Positions 25,697 to 34,008 of a stretch of 61,249 nt of DNA are shown here, piece after piece. How positions within the stretch are numbered: the stretch's first letter is position 1; each line of letters opens with the position of its first letter. The notes beneath the pieces were generated by a model. That model saw nothing but the letters and a program-made list of their open reading frames with translations, searched no databases and was not told where the DNA came from. Position numbers and translations under genes: made by a program. Source of the DNA: Prevotella sp. (GTDB lineage: Bacteria > Bacteroidota > Bacteroidia > Bacteroidales > Bacteroidaceae); the NCBI GenBank assembly GCA_017475265.1, contig JAFVFY010000042.1, positions 1 to 61,249 of the forward strand. The letters run 5' to 3'.

Positions 25697-25704
25697 TACC
25701 TTTG
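25697..25704 (+). promoter_or_regulatory. -7 element before the structured RNAs
   Basis: TACCTTTG matches TAnnTTTG. The -33 box is weak. There is no open gene for the next 670 bases, so transcription from here would produce a long leader or separate RNAs. Confidence 0.5.
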
Positions 25705-26068
25705 TAGCCGCTATCTGCCCATAGTGGCTGTGATGTCCTTTGAGAAAGGCTACGGGTAGGCGACCCATGGTCGGGAATGGGATGGAGCCGCAGGGTGGAG
25801 CACTACTTACTGAAAGGCGTTATCGCGCTTTGTTTTTGTGTATTCGAACTACCACAATCGAAAGAGGACAAGAACATTGCAGGGGTAACTGCCACGGGGT
25901 GTGTATATCAGACTCCGTAGTGTGCTGCGAGGCTCATGTAGCCTCAACGCACACTTTACGGTGTATCTATATACTCCAACGTGGGTGTTTCTCTGTCTGT
26001 TTTCCTCAATGGCTGTGGTAGGCCAGAATACAGAACAGGCAGATGCAAACACCCACGTTTTTTGTTTG
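25705..26068 (+). ncRNA. Structured RNA, copy 1, with terminator stem
   Basis: Visible helices: AGCCGCTAT/ATAGTGGCT near its start; GTATTC (25840-25845) then GAA then CTACCAC (25849-25855) pairing with GTGGTAG (26015-26021), GCCA, GAATAC (26026-26031); hairpin around GAGGCT/AGCCTC near 25930; and a 13-bp stem AACGTGGGTGTTT (25978-25990) with AAACACCCACGTT (26047-26059) followed by a T-run. The terminator stem crosses the CTACCAC helix, giving a pseudoknot or two alternative folds. I do not recognise the RNA class. Copy 2 at 26195 has the same plan. Confidence 0.6.
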
Positions 26069-26136
26069 TAGTCATCACACGATGTTGAACCCGTTCGTAC
26101 TGGGTGTTTACGGACAACACTTGAATGTGATGACTA
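26069..26136 (+). other. Hairpin between the two RNAs
   Basis: TAGTCATCACA (26069-26079) pairs perfectly with TGTGATGACTA (26126-26136); inside, further pairing (TGTTG with CAACA, AACCC with GGGTGTT) is possible. It may be a domain of either RNA. Confidence 0.5.
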
Positions 26137-26194
26137 AGCAATCACATCGAAAGAAAATGAAGTAAAGGAATTGTAGCGTCTTTGACATCCTTGA

Positions 26195-26374
26195 TTTGAC
26201 TGGTTAAGCAGAACTACCACTATACCTGAACACATCAGTCGGACAAACAATTGGATGTTTGCGCTCGATATGGGCGTGGACAGTTAGATTGTTGTCTGAT
26301 GTGGGCTGTGGTAGGCCTTGCTTAAACACATCTCTTCCACGCCCCCTTTTCGAAAACGATAAGAGGGCTTTTTC
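26195..26374 (+). ncRNA. Structured RNA, copy 2, in the methyltransferase leader
   Basis: Same plan as copy 1: TTAAGCA (26204-26210), GAA, CTACCAC (26214-26220) pair with GTGGTAG (26308-26314), GCCT, TGCTTAA (26319-26325). The outer helix differs in sequence from copy 1 but stays paired, a compensatory change, while the internal loop GAA/GCCN and the 14-base GGCTGTGGTAGGCC are kept. An inner helix CACATCAG/CTGATGTG (26231-26238, 26296-26303) is added. A crossing stem GGGCGTGGA (26272-26280) with TCCACGCCC (26336-26344) mirrors the terminator stem of copy 1. Confidence 0.6.
26341..26373 (+). terminator. Terminator-like hairpin just before the methyltransferase ATG
   Basis: GCCCCCTT (26341-26348) can pair with AAGAGGGC (26361-26368), one mismatch, followed by TTTTT and then ATG at 26375. 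The GCCC also takes part in the stem with 26272-26280, so the two folds exclude each other; this is an attenuator-like arrangement. Confidence 0.5.
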
Positions 26375-27508
26375 ATGTCAAAGAAGAAACAATATAAAAT
26401 GGTTGACTTGTTTGCAGGTTGTGGAGGGCTTAGTCTCGGCTTGGAACAAGCAGGCTTTACGCCTTGGTTCGTCAATGAAATTGTTGAGCAGTTTGCAAAT
26501 ACGTACAAGTTCAACCATAAACTATCTGATGAACATTACTACATAGGCGACATCGCTAAACTCAATGAGCATATTGAAGAATACAAAGATATGTTCGAGG
26601 GAATAACACTTGTTTGTGGCGGGCCACCTTGTCAAGGATTCTCGATGGCTAACAGGCAAAGAATTCTTGATGACCCAAGGAATGGACTCTATAAGCAGTA
26701 CTTAATATTCTTACGGAATGTTCGCCCCCAATTCTTCATAATGGAGAACGTCAAGGGCATGATGAATAAGATTGGGGAAATCATTCAGAATTTCAAGGAA
26801 TATCTTGGTGACGATTACCAGTATGACTACGCTGTTTTGAAGGCACAAGACTTTGGTGTGCCTCAGAACAGAGAGCGATTCATCATGATTGGCAATCGCA
26901 TGGGCGTTTCACCGAAGGCAATCTTTGCGGAGATAGACAAGAATAAGCGTGAAGCATTTGTCTTACGAGATGCGCTATATGGACTACCTCATCTTGAATC
27001 AAAGAAAGAGAAAGGACAAAGTGGTATAGAAGACATTCGCTCTGGTTTGACAGAACGTGATTTCGATTATCCTCAGACAGAATTCTATCGCTTCATCAAT
27101 GGTGAAAGGATTATCACTAAACTTTATAACCACAAGAATCGCTACAATAATGAGAGGGATATAGAGATATACAGAAGGCTCCCACAAGGCGCTAACTCAT
27201 TGCACGAATCTATTGCCGACATCATGCCTTACAAAAGGCGTAATGAAATCTTCAAGGACAAGTATTTCAAGTTGGATGAAAGCCAAATCTGCAAGACGAT
27301 TACTTCACACATGAAGTTCGATTGCAATATGTATATCCATCCTTGGGAAGCAAGAGGTCTTAGCCCCAGAGAGGCAGCTCGCATCCAAACATTCCCTGAT
27401 GACTACATTATCACGGGTTCACAAAACATGTGGTATGCCCAAGTGGGTAATGCAGTTCCTGTGAAACTGGCAAAGGCTATAGGAGACGGCATAATGAAGT
27501 TTGTATGA
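26375..27508 (+). CDS. DNA (cytosine-5) methyltransferase, M1 of a LlaJI-like system
   Basis: A 377-residue m5C methyltransferase. Motif I DLFAGCGGLSLGLEQAG, motif IV GGPPCQGFS with catalytic Cys86, motif VI MENVKGM, motif VIII QNRERFIMIG and C-terminal motif X QVGNAVPVKLA are all present. The target-recognition region lies about 200-310. It overlaps the second methyltransferase by 4 bases. The start lies just after a terminator-like hairpin with no obvious Shine-Dalgarno sequence. Confidence 0.95.
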   Translation: MSKKKQYKMVDLFAGCGGLSLGLEQAGFTPWFVNEIVEQFANTYKFNHKLSDEHYYIGDIAKLNEHIEEYKDMFEGITLVCGGPPCQGFSMANRQRILDDPRNGLYKQYLIFLRNVRPQFFIMENVKGMMNKIGEIIQNFKEYLGDDYQYDYAVLKAQDFGVPQNRERFIMIGNRMGVSPKAIFAEIDKNKREAFVLRDALYGLPHLESKKEKGQSGIEDIRSGLTERDFDYPQTEFYRFINGERIITKLYNHKNRYNNERDIEIYRRLPQGANSLHESIADIMPYKRRNEIFKDKYFKLDESQICKTITSHMKFDCNMYIHPWEARGLSPREAARIQTFPDDYIITGSQNMWYAQVGNAVPVKLAKAIGDGIMKFV

Positions 27509-28569
27509 ACCACGTAGAGTTGTTTGCTGGTGTTGGCGGTTTTCGCAGGGCAATGGATTTGATAACTCATGACCTTGGCTTTATCATTCTTACTATCGCT
27601 TATTCAGAAATTGACAAGAACGCTATTACCACATACAATGCAAATTACGACACTACAGGTGAAGTGGCAATGGGGAATATAGTTGAATTCGTCAAAGACA
27701 CAAGAGCGATGGGAACACTTCCTCGTTATGAATTGCTTTCTGGTGGATTCCCATGTCAGACATTCAGTATGATGGGAGGTCAAGAGGGATTTGAAGAAGA
27801 ACGAGGACAGATGTTTTTCCGTATTATGGATATGATTAATGCCAGACATCCGCGATATGTGCTCTTGGAAAATGTCAAGAACCTTATGCGTCATGATGGA
27901 GGAAATACTATCGCTGTTATCAGAAGAGAGCTGGAGCAGGCTGGATATATTGTAAAGATGGACGTTTTCAACTCCAATGACTTTGGCTTACCTCAGAAAC
28001 GCAACAGAGCTATCATCTTTGCAAGACGCAGACATTTGGGTAACTTTGAGTTTAATGCTGACCTTGTTAGAAATGCATTTGCTCAGATAGACAGGGATAA
28101 TTGTTCATTGAACTTTTACGACTCAACAATAGATGTTCTCGACAGACAAGTTGATGAGAAATACTATTTGTCAGAACGAATCAAGCCGACTTTATTGAGT
28201 GACGGTAGTGCTGGTTTTAGGTCAAATTCAGAGATAGACCAAGTCGTGGCAAGGCCATTAACGGCAACAATGCACAAGATGCATCGCGCTTGCCAAGACA
28301 ACTATTATAGTGATTTGTTCATTCAGTCAAATGGCGAAGACAGGCCATCGGAAAGGATGACCAAAGAAGAACTCGCAAGAATACCTATACGCAAGCTGAC
28401 ACCTAAAGAGGCATTTTTGCTTCAAGGTTTTCCCAATAACTTCGCAGATAATGCAGGTCTTGCAAGAGTGGCAGATGGAGCGATGTACAAGCAAGCCGGT
28501 AATGCTGTTAGCGTCAATACTATTTATGCAGTTCTATATTACTTGATTACTAACCGAATAATACGATAA
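27505..28569 (+). CDS. DNA (cytosine-5) methyltransferase, M2 of a LlaJI-like system
   Basis: A 354-residue m5C methyltransferase distinct from the first. Motif I VELFAGVGGFRRAMD, motif IV GGFPCQTFSMMGG with catalytic Cys84, LENVKNLMRHDGG, and GLPQKRNRAIIFARR are visible, and the C terminus has QAGNAVSVNTI. Two different m5C enzymes in one operon suit an asymmetric recognition site, each modifying one strand, as in LlaJI. It ends 2 bases before the ATPase gene. Confidence 0.95.
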   Translation: MNHVELFAGVGGFRRAMDLITHDLGFIILTIAYSEIDKNAITTYNANYDTTGEVAMGNIVEFVKDTRAMGTLPRYELLSGGFPCQTFSMMGGQEGFEEERGQMFFRIMDMINARHPRYVLLENVKNLMRHDGGNTIAVIRRELEQAGYIVKMDVFNSNDFGLPQKRNRAIIFARRRHLGNFEFNADLVRNAFAQIDRDNCSLNFYDSTIDVLDRQVDEKYYLSERIKPTLLSDGSAGFRSNSEIDQVVARPLTATMHKMHRACQDNYYSDLFIQSNGEDRPSERMTKEELARIPIRKLTPKEAFLLQGFPNNFADNAGLARVADGAMYKQAGNAVSVNTIYAVLYYLITNRIIR

Positions 28570-28571
28570 TT

Positions 28572-30047
28572 ATGCCTAATAATAAAATAGAAAAAATTGT
28601 GTGGTCGCAAGACTCACATTTCAAGACAGAAAGAAGGAACTCTGGAGAAACGAGTCTAAATTTATCCTATGAAATATATGAGTTTCTTGGAGGAAATGAT
28701 AACCTTGAAATAGAATTCATCCTTTATAAAGAAGATTTCATAAAGGCTTTGGGGGCATTAGTAAATATGCTTCCTCTCTACACTAGCACATCAAGTAGTT
28801 CTACCCTTTGTAATTATAGTAATTTGCTTTATACGTCATACAGTAATATGATTGAAGCAAAGTTTGCCAATATGGACTGTGCATCATATATTGTGCACAT
28901 GTTTAAACGCGATGATGGTAGAATATATTTAAAGAATCTCACGGATAATACAGGCTTCAATATTAGGAAATTTTTAATACAAGCTCATTCGAAACTTGTT
29001 TTTAGTAAGAATGAAGAGGGGAACTACGTTATTCGTCTATGCACAAATAATAATGAGTTCCCCAAAGAGGCTTCTTACCAATTATACAAGCCTATCGAAG
29101 GTTATGAAATAGAACAGAAAATATACTTTGGTACTCCTGGCTCTGGTAAGTCATGGACTATTAAGAAACAATATGAGATGAGGAAGGATAGAGAAAAGTA
29201 TGTTGAAGATGAAGAAATGAAAAAGAGAGCTATCAGAACCACATTCCATCCTGATACCGACTATGCCTCGTTTGTTGGATGCTATAAGCCTGTGAAGGAC
29301 AAGGAAGATAGTAAGAAGATTATCTATGAGTTCGTGCCGCAAGCATTTACAGATGCATACGTAGCAGCATGGAGTGACTTGGAACATCCTTATTATCTGA
29401 TAATTGAAGAAATCAACCGTGGTAACTGTGCCCAGATATTTGGCGACTTGTTCCAATTGTTAGACAGAAATAAGGATGGATATTCGGAATACCCCATCAA
29501 GGCCGACCATGATTTGAAGGATTATTTATTGGATCATCTACCAGAGGATAGCGAGGGCATCAGAGATGGCAAACTTTGCCTGCCTCCTAATCTGAGCATC
29601 ATCGCTTCAATGAATACAAGTGACCAAAGTCTGTTCCCAATGGACTCTGCCTTTAAGCGTCGTTGGAGTTGGGAATATGTGCCCATTGACTATGAGAATG
29701 CTGAATCTGGAGCATTCACGATAACTATTGGGGGCGAGTCTCATAACTGGCATAAGTTCTTAGAGAAAGTCAACAAGAAGATAAAAACCGTAACATCTTC
29801 TGAGGACAAGCAGATGGGCAACTTCTTCATCAAAGCCAGCGTAGACGAAAAGGAGTTTTGCGACAAAGTGATGTTCTATCTGTGGAGTGAGGTCGGCAAG
29901 GACAACTACCAAACGAACGACGCCATCTTCCGCTACTATGCAGAAGAGGACAAACTGAAGGAGTTCTCGTTCAACGAGCTTTATGACCAGACAAAGAGGA
30001 ATACTATTTTGAAAGGCTTTATCCGCTATATAGAAGAAGAGAAATGA
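28572..30047 (+). CDS. McrB-like AAA+ GTPase/ATPase subunit
   Basis: A 491-residue AAA+ protein of the McrB/LlaJI R1 type. The N-terminal 180 residues are an uncharacterised, probably DNA-binding part. The motor has Walker A GTPGSGKS at 187-194, a TTFHPDTDYASFVGCY segment, Walker B YLIIEEINRGN, a sensor ASMNTSDQSLFPMDSAFKRR with the arginine finger, and the McrB-type layout. It drives DNA translocation by the partner nuclease. ATGA overlap couples it to the nuclease gene. Confidence 0.9.
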   Translation: MPNNKIEKIVWSQDSHFKTERRNSGETSLNLSYEIYEFLGGNDNLEIEFILYKEDFIKALGALVNMLPLYTSTSSSSTLCNYSNLLYTSYSNMIEAKFANMDCASYIVHMFKRDDGRIYLKNLTDNTGFNIRKFLIQAHSKLVFSKNEEGNYVIRLCTNNNEFPKEASYQLYKPIEGYEIEQKIYFGTPGSGKSWTIKKQYEMRKDREKYVEDEEMKKRAIRTTFHPDTDYASFVGCYKPVKDKEDSKKIIYEFVPQAFTDAYVAAWSDLEHPYYLIIEEINRGNCAQIFGDLFQLLDRNKDGYSEYPIKADHDLKDYLLDHLPEDSEGIRDGKLCLPPNLSIIASMNTSDQSLFPMDSAFKRRWSWEYVPIDYENAESGAFTITIGGESHNWHKFLEKVNKKIKTVTSSEDKQMGNFFIKASVDEKEFCDKVMFYLWSEVGKDNYQTNDAIFRYYAEEDKLKEFSFNELYDQTKRNTILKGFIRYIEEEK

Positions 30048-32068
30048 AGATATTCTTTGAGGAATACGTCTATAACTGGGATGTCGTGAAGGAGTTTCTG
30101 CACGACCACTATGTGATGTACCTCAAAGACAATCGGGTGACGATTCCATACGTTGGGTATTACTACTCTTCGAAGGCAGAGGACTCTGTGTTCATTTTGC
30201 CCAAGGTGTTTATAAACATCGATGGGAACAAAAGGGAAAAAGCCTTTGGTATGTTCGAACCTGAGGAGATCATCGATACAAAGGATGTGAAGAATCCCTT
30301 ATTGAAGTCTGAGTATTTCAACGAGGTGTTTAATCTCTCCGCTTGGATTTACAGAGCTATTGCACGCTATCGGGAAAGGCACAGTCCTGAGAATATCACT
30401 GAGTCTGTTGAGGTTCAGAATGTGGAGTCGGTGAATGGTGACAACAGTGAGACTTGGATAAACATCATTCTCCAGTTAATACGCTTCAACAATGAGCACA
30501 GGAACCTCTTCACCTATATAGCCCGTATCAACTCGCAGGGGCATCACAAAATAAACTGGCAAAAGACTATCAGTAAGGTACGCCCTTGGTTGCAGGACGA
30601 TAATCCTGTCTATATGAAGTTCCGAAATAAGTCGAAAGTCATCAACTACGATGAAGAACTGATAGTGCTGTTCTACTCTGTGCTTGACTATCTGCATGAC
30701 AAGTATCACTTCTGCATCCTGAGAAATGTGAACTATCCTACCTACCCCAAGGATATTGAGAAACTGATAGAGTCAGGTAGAGGAACGCGTTTACTTAAAA
30801 GCATAAGAAGGAAATACTTTAAGGATGAATTGGTGAAGTTGTGGCAACTGCTTAACGTGTTCTTCGAAAAAGCTCAGACAATGAGGAGCAAGCAGATGCA
30901 TGAAGAGTCGCTGATGGTAAGGAACTTCAATATGGTGTTCGAAGATATGATAGACTCGTTGGTTAGCGATGACACAAAGGTCAAAAACGAGAAATTGAAG
31001 GACCAGCCAGACGGGAAGATAGTAGACCACATCTATCATTACGGTTCCATAGTCCGCGATGACGACATCTACTATATAGGTGATAGCAAATATTATAAGG
31101 AAGGGCACGACCCGGGAGAGAACTCTATCCATAAGCAGTTTACTTACGCCAAGAATGTTATCCAAATGAATATGGACGTGACGGCACCAAACGGTCAGAT
31201 AGGGCGTGGAAATTATTACGATGACTTGACGGAGGGATATAACATCACGCCAAACTTCTTTATTCGTGGGATGGTGAATCCGCTACACCTGAATTATATT
31301 GAGGCGGAACTGGAACAACAAACAGACAGAAAGGGGAAGCCAGATGTAGAAAGACGATGGCATCACAAGAATCGTCTCTTTGACCGCGATACGCTCTTTG
31401 TGCTGAAGTACAGTATTAATTTCCTGTTTGTGCTGTCTGCATACGCTACAGGTCGAGTTGATGAGGCATACAAGAACCACATTCGAAAGAAGTTCAAGCG
31501 AAATGTGACAGAAGAATTAAAGAGGAACTACCATTTCTATTTGCTGTTGTCGAAAGGCAACAGGGAAGGTGCTGTCGACAAGCATTTCCGGCTGCTGAAT
31601 GGAAAAGTATTCAATTCATTTAAGGACGGAAGGATTCTCCTTTGTGCATACGAAAAGGGGAAACGCGGAGCAATACAATTCTTCGACCAGATAAAGGATG
31701 ACTTCAAGATTATCCGATATGATTTGGGTCAGGATATACATGAGGCTATTCAGAATCAGCCGAAAGTCTCATTGGAGCCTCGCCACCAGCCTGTTCAAGC
31801 AACGCTATTCCCAATGATGGGCGCAAAACTTGAAGATATCCGCGATGACCAAGATGTGTATAATCTTGTCTGGAGAACAATGATCTTGGAGGATATGGCT
31901 GCTGACCCAGGGCAAATCATAGCAGAATGTCATACGAACTATAAATTCCTTGATAGGTACCCAGGAATGACTCATCGCGATTGGAACAAGGTTATAATGG
32001 ATTTCATTCACGACGTTCAGGCTTGCTATGACTTAGAGTTGCCAGAGATATTCAGAATGGCGGCGTAA
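30044..32068 (+). CDS. LlaJI-family restriction endonuclease subunit (McrC-like)
   Basis: A 674-residue nuclease subunit. The central region has NFNMVFEDMIDSLV and then the PD-(D/E)xK-type site: Asp in PDGKIVDHIYHYG near residue 333 and the IGDSKYYK segment near 350, where Asp-Ser-Lys forms the DxK part. The flanking N-terminal and C-terminal parts lack a motif I can assign. With the McrB-like ATPase it forms a McrBC-type restriction complex. It is the last gene of the four-gene operon. Assignment to the LlaJI family rests on gene order and the nuclease site. Confidence 0.82.
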   Translation: MKIFFEEYVYNWDVVKEFLHDHYVMYLKDNRVTIPYVGYYYSSKAEDSVFILPKVFINIDGNKREKAFGMFEPEEIIDTKDVKNPLLKSEYFNEVFNLSAWIYRAIARYRERHSPENITESVEVQNVESVNGDNSETWINIILQLIRFNNEHRNLFTYIARINSQGHHKINWQKTISKVRPWLQDDNPVYMKFRNKSKVINYDEELIVLFYSVLDYLHDKYHFCILRNVNYPTYPKDIEKLIESGRGTRLLKSIRRKYFKDELVKLWQLLNVFFEKAQTMRSKQMHEESLMVRNFNMVFEDMIDSLVSDDTKVKNEKLKDQPDGKIVDHIYHYGSIVRDDDIYYIGDSKYYKEGHDPGENSIHKQFTYAKNVIQMNMDVTAPNGQIGRGNYYDDLTEGYNITPNFFIRGMVNPLHLNYIEAELEQQTDRKGKPDVERRWHHKNRLFDRDTLFVLKYSINFLFVLSAYATGRVDEAYKNHIRKKFKRNVTEELKRNYHFYLLLSKGNREGAVDKHFRLLNGKVFNSFKDGRILLCAYEKGKRGAIQFFDQIKDDFKIIRYDLGQDIHEAIQNQPKVSLEPRHQPVQATLFPMMGAKLEDIRDDQDVYNLVWRTMILEDMAADPGQIIAECHTNYKFLDRYPGMTHRDWNKVIMDFIHDVQACYDLELPEIFRMAA

Positions 32069-32281: not shown

Positions 32282-32313
32282 TTTGGACACTTCATAGAAA
32301 ATGTCTATCTTTG
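32282..32313 (+). promoter_or_regulatory. Promoter of the first PIN toxin-antitoxin pair
   Basis: TTTG at 32282-32285 and TATCTTTG at 32306-32313 with 20 bases between, a full -33/-7 pair. The same 86-base upstream region precedes the second pair. Confidence 0.75.
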
Positions 32314-32340
32314 CACCGAATAACAAATAAAGAAGCAAAT

Positions 32341-32607
32341 ATGACAGTAAGGGAAATGCAACAGGATGCCGTGAGACGGATTTCGCATCTTGGCGATGGC
32401 GATGCCCAGACTATGCAGTCTATCTGGCTGTTTGTGTCCTCAGCTTTACCAGCCCATGAGGAAGAAAACAAAGCCGAAAGTGAGCGAGCCAAGGCTAAAA
32501 GACTGGCCCACTCCTTTTTGGGCGCTTTCTCTGCAAGCAGAACCGACGAGGACTGGAAAAAGGTAAAAGAGGACTATCTGGTTAGTAAATATGCCACAAA
32601 TGAATAA
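32341..32607 (+). CDS. Antitoxin of a PIN toxin-antitoxin pair
   Basis: An 88-residue protein, start chosen at 32341 (MTVREMQQDAVRRISHLGDG), 27 bases after the -7 element; an in-frame ATG at 32311 lies inside the promoter. Helical, with a charged KRLAHSFLGAFSASRTDEDW C-terminal part typical of antitoxin tails. It overlaps the PIN gene by 8 bases. Role inferred from position. Confidence 0.75.
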   Translation: MTVREMQQDAVRRISHLGDGDAQTMQSIWLFVSSALPAHEEENKAESERAKAKRLAHSFLGAFSASRTDEDWKKVKEDYLVSKYATNE

Positions 32608-33028
32608 AGTATTTATTGACACCAATATCTTCCTCGACTACATACAACAGCGTCCAGAAGGTTGGCGTGAGGCGGAGATAATCTTTTTCTTGGCCATTCA
32701 TGGTGACATAGAGATGCTCGTATCTGACTTGACAATAGCCAATATGAGGTATGTGACAAGGAAAGACATTCCTTTGGAGCAGTTCTATGCCGTAATGAAA
32801 GGCTTGCGCCCATACTATACCATAGTGAAGGTAGGAGGAAAGGCAGTGGATGCGGCCTATGACTTGGAGACGAAGGATTTTGAAGATGCACTACAGTATT
32901 ATTCTGCCGAACAGGCAGAAGCCGACTGTATCGTGACAAGAAACCTGAAGGACTTCGATTTCCCAAGAGCGGTTGAGACTCTTGAACCAAAAGCGTTTCT
33001 TAAGAAATATTTCCCAGAAGAATTATAA
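32600..33028 (+). CDS. PIN domain ribonuclease toxin
   Basis: A 142-residue PIN-domain protein starting MNKVFIDTNIFLDYIQQRP. The conserved acidic residues of the PIN active site are seen: Asp in FIDTN, Glu in the EAEIIF region, Asp in KDFEDALQYYSAEQ and Asp in DCIVTRNLKDF. Such toxins cleave RNA, often tRNA. An ATG at 32591 gives 3 more residues. Translation is coupled to the antitoxin gene. Confidence 0.88.
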   Translation: MNKVFIDTNIFLDYIQQRPEGWREAEIIFFLAIHGDIEMLVSDLTIANMRYVTRKDIPLEQFYAVMKGLRPYYTIVKVGGKAVDAAYDLETKDFEDALQYYSAEQAEADCIVTRNLKDFDFPRAVETLEPKAFLKKYFPEEL

Positions 33029-33260
33029 AACAGACTTCCCACGTCCTTGGACTGACGCCGACCTTTACGCAAAGTACGGCCTGACAGAAGATGCTCCGAG
33101 CTTCTTGCGCTCCATTGGTGCTCAGGCGCTTCGCGGAGGTCTCGCCTGAGTACCTATAAAAAGAAAGAGACGTGCGAAGAAATTGCCTTCATCGAGCTGA
33201 TTATTAAGCCGATGGAGTGACCTCTGAGGTGTTGGGTATTCAAAAAAAAAGGCTTAAAGT
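33029..33260. pseudogene. Relic repeat after the first toxin-antitoxin pair
   Basis: A degenerate copy of a gene 3' end: the plus strand reads DFPRPWTDADLYAKYGLTED, then frame breaks, then a tail close to AFIE-MIKPME. The same piece recurs at 34025-34222. It could be the end of an N6-DNA methylase or helicase gene, but that is only a guess. Confidence 0.55.
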
Positions 33261-33291
33261 TTTGATACTTCATAGAAAATGTCTATCTTTG
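33261..33291 (+). promoter_or_regulatory. Promoter of the second PIN pair
   Basis: TTTG at 33261-33264 and TATCTTTG at 33284-33291, 19 bases apart. The sequence is nearly the same as the promoter at 32282. Confidence 0.75.
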
Positions 33292-33319
33292 CACTGTCAA
33301 ATCAAAAAGCTACGAAATT

Positions 33320-33589
33320 ATGGCAACAATCGTACTTAATCCGTCGTTGTATTCTCAGGCTCAGAGCTATGCTAAGGCTGACGGCATGAGCGTGGAGGAA
33401 TGGGTGGCTATGCTAATCACACGTTTCACCCCCGCCAAGAAAAAGAAGTATAAAATGAAAAAGATAGAAGAACTCTCGCCTGAACTACAAGCCTTAATCG
33501 GTTTTGCAAAGCCAGCAGTGGCCAGTGACGATGACATAAATGGCGACAGAGCCAGGACGGAATACCTGAATGAGAAATATGCTTTATGA
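33320..33589 (+). CDS. Antitoxin of the second PIN pair
   Basis: An 89-residue protein with an N-terminal MATIVLNPSLYSQAQSYAKA strand and helix, reminiscent of ribbon-helix-helix antitoxins, a Lys-rich stretch (KKKKYKMKK) and a toxin-binding-like C terminus. It is unlike the first antitoxin. It overlaps the toxin gene by 4 bases. Confidence 0.75.
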   Translation: MATIVLNPSLYSQAQSYAKADGMSVEEWVAMLITRFTPAKKKKYKMKKIEELSPELQALIGFAKPAVASDDDINGDRARTEYLNEKYAL

Positions 33590-34008
33590 TGAGAGTATTT
33601 CTTGATACCAACATTCTTCTTGACATCATTGAAGCCCGGCAGAAATTCCTGTTGGCCTCATCGAATGTTTTTGACTTAGGCATAAAAAGACGCATAGAAT
33701 TGTTTGCCACTCCTTTGACCTTTGCTAATTGTGTGTACACTGCACGCAAGAACGTAGGGTACGAAAATGCTATACATGGTCTAAAAGCCTTGAAAGCATA
33801 CGTGAAGACTACTACGATGGACGACAACCAAGTAATGGATGCCCTTTGTTCGGATATGCCAGATTTTGAAGATATGCTTCAGTATAAGGCAGCTGAAGCA
33901 GCCGGATGTGATGCCATCGTTACAAGAGACAAAAAACGTCACTTCCCACAAAAAGGAATCCCAGTCCTGTCACCAGAAGCATTTTTAAACGAGTATTTCA
34001 AAGATTGA
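33586..34008 (+). CDS. PIN domain ribonuclease toxin, second pair
   Basis: A 140-residue PIN protein: MMRVFLDTNILLDIIEARQK, ANCVYTARKNVGYENAIHGL, a DFEDMLQYKAAEAAGCDAIV acidic cluster and TRDKKRHF. All four acidic positions are present. It resembles the first toxin only in the core motifs. Confidence 0.88.
   Translation: MMRVFLDTNILLDIIEARQKFLLASSNVFDLGIKRRIELFATPLTFANCVYTARKNVGYENAIHGLKALKAYVKTTTMDDNQVMDALCSDMPDFEDMLQYKAAEAAGCDAIVTRDKKRHFPQKGIPVLSPEAFLNEYFKD

Follow-up and report, generated by a model that had tools for sequence, protein, structure and literature searches.

The LlaJI-type restriction-modification operon of the Prevotella sp. DNA analysed here (the window, 61,249 nucleotides) is preceded by an RNA of about 400 nt, c1 (~25708-26115), and then by a shorter element, c2 (~26177-26374). 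Comparison with related sequences indicates that this leader is probably a cis-acting attenuator belonging to a new RNA family, which would gate transcription into the genes behind it by means of mutually exclusive helices. The features of the leader and the operon are the following.

25697..25704, + strand: -7 promoter box of the Bacteroidetes type, TACCTTTG (TAnnTTTG), with the transcription start predicted from the sequence a few bases downstream
25708..25799, + strand: 5' hairpin domain of c1, a stem predicted by folding, which varies between loci
25802..26072, + strand: c1 core, closed by PA (ACTAC 25802-25806 with GTAGT 26068-26072), from the alignment of 90 c1 sequences
25813..25831, + strand: PB hairpin, the most conserved part of c1 (95.4% paired, zero two-sided changes)
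25840..26031, + strand: c1 P1 (GTATTC 25840-25845 with GAATAC 26026-26031) and P2 (CTACCAC 25849-25855 with GTGGTAG 26015-26021)
25911..25963, + strand: c1 P4 arm, 93.7% paired (5/11 two-sided) and 79.8% (3/4)
25979..26063, + strand: c1 P3 (25979-25990 with 26048-26059), crossing P1/P2, with P3b inside it and a T-run at 26058-26063
26093..26115, + strand: P6 hairpin, with the loop TGGGTGTTT (26101-26109) complementary to the P3 3' strand, from covariation
26177..26374, + strand: second element, c2, with 32 relatives aligned
26204..26325, + strand: c2 P1 (TTAAGCA 26204-26210 with TGCTTAA 26319-26325) and P2 (CTACCAC 26214-26220 with GTGGTAG 26308-26314)
26272..26344, + strand: c2 P3 (26272-26280 with 26336-26344), a putative antiterminator, 99.3% paired (8/9 pairs invariant)
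26341..26373, + strand: predicted intrinsic terminator of c2, -12.9 kcal/mol, its T-run ending 1 nt before the ATG
26375..27508, + strand: C5 DNA methyltransferase 1 (PF00145, 1.9e-69)
27505..28569, + strand: C5 DNA methyltransferase 2 (PF00145, 1.2e-64)
28572..30047, + strand: AAA_5 ATPase, McrB-like restriction subunit (PF07728; PADLOC REase_II)
30044..32068, + strand: LlaJI-type restriction endonuclease (PF09563 RE_LlaJI, 6.3e-7)

The operon was assigned to the LlaJI type by the presence of PF00145 twice together with PF07728 and PF09563; two C5 methyltransferases, an AAA/McrB-like subunit and an RE_LlaJI subunit make up the LlaJI gene set. TAnnTTTG is the consensus of the Bacteroidetes -7 box. 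Of the related loci, 91/99 have such a box at a constant spacing ahead of c1, versus 17/374 control windows. The leader folds more stably than shuffled sequence, with z-scores of -7.6 (25708-26065) and -4.5 (26060-26374), and the P3 hairpin of c1 has a predicted energy of -43.4 kcal/mol.

The original prediction described two tandem copies of an unrecognised, pseudoknot-like RNA. The pairings proposed for both copies (P1, the GAA/GCCN internal loop, which lies between P1 and P2 of c1, and P2) are found in the sequence where they had been placed, and the 14 bases said to be identical in the two copies, GGCTGTGGTAGGCC, do occur exactly twice in the window. With up to two mismatches this 14-mer has three places in the window; shuffled sequence gave 0.30 on average, and one of 100 shuffles reached three. 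The 4.75-Mb genome has four exact copies of it: besides the two in the window, contigs C127 and C106 carry one each, and there the surrounding ~110 nt are 69-71% identical to the first window copy. Three further places in the genome with one mismatch lie within coding sequence and look like chance. Both predicted structures are therefore present, but they are different elements rather than equivalent copies: an additional P5/P4 arm and the P6 hairpin belong to c1 only, and the terminator to c2. Compared with the earlier description, c1 begins upstream of P1 and runs ~50 nt past its own T-run. The GC-rich stem ending in a T-run and crossing the P1/P2 helices is as predicted in the first copy. 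A crossing stem exists in the second copy as well, but the T-run there belongs to a separate terminator hairpin which overlaps P3.

The search of Bacteroidales with a covariance model, which had been named as a check of the prediction, found relatives in the genus, the family and the order. The model, R1, was built from three copies and covers 150 positions with the P4 and P3 arms. It has matches in 52/150 genomes of the genus at E <= 0.1 (19/69 good ones), in 63/301 genomes of the family at E <= 0.001, representing 15/30 genera, and in 10/393 genomes of the order, the own genome being included; the copy numbers are lower bounds, with a subset of the candidates scored per genome. The exact PB-hairpin pattern occurs in at least 120 stretches of named genomes. 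The 80 of these that were listed come, by title, mostly from Prevotellaceae/Bacteroidaceae of the rumen or other ruminant gut, include the isolates Prevotella communis E15-14 and Prevotella sp. ne3005, and match R1 at E <= 0.01 in 73 cases. As one exact pattern, PB has no occurrence in viral contigs, and a distant DNA search of phages and plasmids gave no match. The description of the RNA as unrecognised holds in that the window has no match in Rfam 15 at gathering scores; seven related loci yielded only a tRNA at these scores, and relaxed thresholds gave matches far below the gathering scores, or, for L066, none up to E 1. Among the papers listed by literature searches, main texts only, none was recognisable as a description of this RNA.

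Sequences were taken from the best 39 R1 matches in other genomes of the genus plus one in the own genome, and from 15/16 matches outside the family. The locus set consists of 47 matches minus four on the opposite strand and of 78 minus five opposite-strand overlaps and the fragment L179, giving 115 c1 stretches, or 102 after removal of identical ones. Counts over these loci do not describe a random sample, 80 of the at least 120 PB stretches having been examined and chosen by the c1 hairpin pattern.

The fold of c1 was examined in an alignment of 90 of the 91 non-redundant full-length sequences (L048 was left out). P1 is paired in 87.1% of the cells with two-sided change in 8/9 pairs, P2 in 94.6% (6/7), P2b in 69.8% (8/8), P3 in 87.4% (8/12) and P3b in 97.3% (5/9). 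A GGY/RCC mini-stem around the 3' strand of P2 is 95.6% paired, with two of its three pairs changed on both sides. In some loci P2 is wholly replaced and nevertheless paired, as in L076, which has GTAGGAAA/TTTCCTAC. PA, the helix that closes the domain, pairs ACTACA close to the 5' end with TGTAGT past the T-run (88.9% and 79.8% paired, 3/7 two-sided), so that the c1 domain reaches beyond the T-run. In 500 shuffles of the P1/P2 helix set four of five measures were never reached and the number of two-sided pairs was reached twice; in 500 of the P3/P3b/P4 set no measure was reached. Slid versions scored lower, and the shuffles ignore the relatedness of the sequences. Structural selection, claimed from the two window copies, is thus borne out by compensation in P1 and P2 of both 90 c1 (87.1%, 94.6%) and 32 c2 sequences (98.2%, 100%). 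Paired positions that change without compensation in homologues had been named beforehand as the finding that would speak against the RNA; on inspection, the main helices were compensated. G-U pairs are common in the c1 helices and often replace Watson-Crick pairs on this strand, which fits an RNA transcribed from it. A coding reading of c1 was set aside in view of the gaps and two-sided changes in the alignment. Readings as a retron, an intron or a tracrRNA were considered; no reverse transcriptase, maturase or cas family is among the 25 of 48 first-downstream families listed.

About 40 nt downstream of P3, the loop of the P6 hairpin offers an alternative partner for the 3' strand of P3. P6 is paired in 86.9% of the cells with two-sided change in 7/8 pairs, and the stem of the P6 hairpin in 60.8% (90 c1). 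In 500 shuffles three measures of P6 were never reached, one was reached 4 times and one 30 times. The longest helix between P3 strand and loop has a mean of 7.6 bp with the own loop, 6.5 bp with loops swapped between loci and 5.2 bp with shuffled ones; the difference between own and swapped loops is modest because the loops are alike between loci. Since P3 and P6 share one strand, the two helices cannot coexist. By its pattern of covariation c1 is a putative two-state switch between P3 and P6, both of which are kept by compensatory change, in agreement with the predicted pseudoknot or pair of exclusive states. A run of four or more T follows P3 in 98/102 c1 sequences, versus 63/1215 control windows, which makes P3 terminator-like. 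The partner of the P3 strand in P6 lies behind this T-run, so that the order of events in c1 would be unlike that of a classical antiterminator, and this order is the weakest step of the switch model. P1 may have an alternative pairing too: a local hairpin competing with it is 82.1% paired, with 4/5 pairs two-sided and mixed shuffle results. An upstream competitor of P3 (CCACG/CGTGG) was discarded, its 97.8% pairing being equalled by shuffles. Three of the four c1 sequences without a T4 run are L009, L010 and L048, and L010 and L048 also lack an ORF of 100 aa in the next 500 nt. These two have lost the T-run, retain little P6 complementarity and may be decaying; in L048 a contig end is only 381 nt away.

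A second element, c2 or c3, stands between c1 and most of the C5 methyltransferase operons. Such a methyltransferase follows 41/47 leaders with a second element versus 4/46 without, the c2/c3 tags being motif patterns that were defined once these loci had been inspected. The c2 alignment contains 32 of the 34 flagged sequences, with L072 (a false flag) and L124 (too short) left out. In it P1 is 98.2% paired with 5/7 pairs two-sided and P2 100% with 4/7; P3 is 99.3% paired, but 8/9 of its pairs are invariant and it is uninformative by covariation. The helix of c3 analogous to c2 P3 has a different sequence. A further possible c2 helix, ACATCC/GGATGT, is nearly invariant. The c2 terminator is 88.6% paired, and 4/12 of its pairs change on both sides, in one sequence each. 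Four nucleotides are common to the 5' strand of this terminator and the 3' strand of P3, and c2 P3 and the complete terminator therefore exclude each other. In c3 the same strand is complementary to both the terminator and an upstream strand in 9/12 loci with a terminator, in two sequence subtypes; seven of the nine stand at a shuffle fraction of 0.05 or less, and the shared strand is absent in the other three. Mutually exclusive pairings of a putative antiterminator and a terminator are thus found in both elements, by overlap in c2 and by a shared strand in c3. A simple terminator scan of the window missed both the c2 terminator and P3. In 30 of the 34 flagged c2 rows at most 2 nt separate the terminator T-run from the start codon (the others are two at 21 and 31 nt, the false flag and one without a terminator); in 12/14 c3 rows the distance is at most 18 nt, the remaining two having no terminator. 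L183 and L137 have a small ORF (~90-105 aa, MAKYT..ESHITTVEEVKDFF) in the interval from c1 to c2, and in L146 and L181 c2 likewise follows ~370-385 nt behind c1.

The position of c1 is that of a 5' leader. An ORF of at least 100 aa starts on the same strand within 500 nt of c1 in 93/102 loci; some of the nine others are at contig ends. The first downstream protein was taken as the longest such ORF, so that the start, or the choice of ORF, may be incorrect in some loci (in L137, trimming to the ATG leaves 90 aa). Where c1 stands alone, the chosen ORF begins 60-100 nt behind the end of the model in 29/46 loci. PF00145 is found in 46/93 first downstream proteins. Other restriction-modification families, partly overlapping this count, are Eco57I (5), D12 (4), N6_N4 (4), TdeIII (3), N6_Mtase (3) and MutH (1). 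Cargo unrelated to restriction comprises Acyl_transf_3 (5), GDSL (3), CotH (3), hexapeptide (2) and one each of MBOAT, glycosyltransferase, sulfatase and radical SAM, all among the 25 of 48 families listed. On the upstream side, the commonest family in the 77 nearest proteins is HTH_3, with three, and PF00145 occurs in at most one of the 77, not being among the 25 of 100 families listed. Outside the family, the 15 first genes comprise five of restriction-modification (C5 in L231, L241 and the near-identical L242, D12 in L236, TdeIII in L237), three of other families and seven without a Pfam match, several of which are, by eye, surface lipoprotein-like. The predicted tie to restriction-modification thus stands in that the RNA is linked to such operons, but c1 also precedes genes for surface-sugar modification, surface proteins and other functions, and it is not specific to restriction-modification. 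C5 methyltransferases occur in 93/150 genomes of the genus, and most are without the RNA. By hand comparison 8/47 homologues of the LlaJI endonuclease in the same 301 genomes, the own one included, have c1 within ~5 kb upstream on the same strand, so the link is not obligatory.

Nearly the same RNA is found before different genes. The c1 cores of L063 and L123 are ~98-99% identical before different cargo, those of L232 and L233 are 97.9% identical between two families, with the identity ending near the closing helix, and c2 modules are shared likewise (L054/L111). These pairs, most of which are on metagenome-assembled contigs, show recent exchange of the RNA between loci, which may have proceeded by gene conversion or true mobility. 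Shared locus ends had suggested a mobile cassette, but in the one close pair examined for this the upstream DNA is related too.

Under the preferred reading, a cis-acting attenuator, transcription would start at the promoter box. By comparison, c1 folds as a closed domain in which P3 crosses P1 and P2. The P3 helix of c1 and the T-run after it would form a first terminator or a pause site, and the form with P6 paired would allow read-through. In c2 and c3 the folded core would keep P3 as the antiterminator and the gene would be on; without P3 the terminator would form and the gene would be off. Expression of phage-facing functions would thereby be gated, in the window that of the whole run of four genes. 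Control of the timing of methyltransferase versus nuclease, which had been proposed earlier, is beyond the RNA alone: the two methyltransferase genes and the two LlaJI-type restriction genes follow it as a single run, so it could only gate the whole run and not separate methylation from cutting. The cargo, restriction together with the surface coat, suggests a cue related to phage or to DNA entry. We tentatively propose, as an idea less likely to be right than wrong, that one exchanged RNA sensor places the restriction-modification and surface-coat genes of Bacteroidales under such a common cue as an RNA-controlled immune regulon, in which the choice between P3 and P6, with the second attenuator in C5 systems, would arm the genes only when needed.

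Several other readings of the same data have to be weighed. c1 could be a processive-antitermination RNA acting on its own RNA polymerase to let it pass c2/c3 and later terminators. Every locus of the set contains c1 (the set was selected for it), and wherever a second element exists, c1 precedes it. Terminators stand behind c1, and its strong conservation across genera suggests a conserved cellular partner. However, 46/93 loci are without a second element by the motif tags and hence without a known terminator for c1 to pass, c2 and c3 have an antiterminator-like P3 of their own, and c1 itself ends in a T-run hairpin; we regard this reading as unlikely. Somewhat less probable is a trans-acting or ribonucleoprotein RNA, placed before the genes by chance and with P3 and the T-run as its 3' end. 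The promoter motif of its own, the strong terminator-like hairpin, the large conserved fold and the absence in L010 of a same-strand gene close behind c1 would all suit such an RNA, whereas PA and P6 use sequence behind the T-run and covary, the gene distance is set in 29/46 c1-only loci, and the second element is tied to the type of cargo.

The exchanged modules (L063/L123, L232/L233, L054/L111) and the occurrence of LlaJI homologues both with (8/47) and without the RNA could also mean that the core is a mobile or often converted module which hitch-hikes in islands with its cargo and has little regulatory role. The constant strand and set spacing before genes, the compensation that keeps the switch helices and the specificity of the second element for C5 operons argue against it, and the flanks are non-homologous between loci, so that identity must stop there anyway; the module reading appears improbable, the more so than either RNA just described. 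Inverted repeats are also present at the level of the DNA, and the element might be a cruciform or a protein-binding site rather than RNA, which is extremely improbable given the G-U pairs in place of Watson-Crick pairs on this strand, the pseudoknot topology and the fixed place behind the promoter box.

Large ornate bacterial RNAs include OLE, GOLLD and ROOL, the last named for its rumen origin. c1 resembles them in size and ornateness; unlike them, it has no Rfam match at gathering thresholds, and we know of no description of them leading defence genes. The put and EAR elements are RNA leaders for processive antitermination which act on downstream termination; they are much smaller and of other structure, and c1, also an RNA leader, has no Rfam match. 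Restriction-modification genes are dangerous when switched on in a new host and, with surface-sugar genes, are first-line barriers to phage. The control known for restriction-modification runs through proteins, methylation or antisense RNA. Passages of two reviews describe control by C proteins, methylation and antisense RNA (PMC3874152, PMC12707154), and in these passages no class of leader-RNA switch was found. Like terminator-based riboswitches and pseudoknot attenuators (PMC11109978), the RNA described here has a leader position and a conserved core, and in c2 and c3 a strand is shared by the putative antiterminator and the terminator; unlike in those systems, the cargo is not a metabolic pathway, and c1 has a second, downstream partner for P3. 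The nearest published parallel encountered is RCd22, which precedes abiF in the Clostridioides difficile phage phi027. According to passages of one report (PMC12373285), this noncoding RNA has a promoter of its own, carries a Rho-independent terminator and lies immediately upstream of the anti-phage gene abiF; read-through co-transcription is suggested, and RCd22 lowers abiF expression in cis. Compared by description, RCd22 has ~100-130 nt, two short motif copies and one type of gene, whereas c1 has ~400 nt, a pseudoknot with two exclusive helices, many unrelated types of cargo, a second attenuator before C5 operons and a distribution in Bacteroidales.

If the attenuator reading is true, many unrelated restriction systems would share a widespread RNA leader as a new layer of control, supplemented by a further attenuator where a C5 methyltransferase gene comes first. 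The leader would also be a means to spot unannotated defence genes, and the fold would be a covariation-backed two-state RNA switch with P3, P6 and the terminator as testable positions.

Several observations were made beside the leader. In L074 (4559-6919) and L084 (5660-8077) the first gene encodes a ~790-aa product without a Pfam match, in L074 also without a PADLOC match, which is a possible candidate for an unnamed defence protein. A 168-aa protein behind c1 at L086:7337-7840 has no Pfam match at 1e-3 and resembles, by eye, the NusG-like antiterminators of capsule operons. In L009, L079 and L081 c1 is followed by a small or DUF2971 ORF, behind which lie genes for surface proteins that contain Big_2 or LRR-like repeats. 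L003 (~1845-2015, + strand) and L006 (~1845-1985, + strand) carry, divergent to the c1 of C127 and C106, a promoter box, a repeated element (GCGGGGAGTAAGRC...TGCTCC) without an Rfam match up to E 5, and a terminator-like hairpin. In the window, behind the restriction operon at 32311-34008, there are two pairs of small ORFs which by eye resemble an antitoxin and a PIN-domain toxin.
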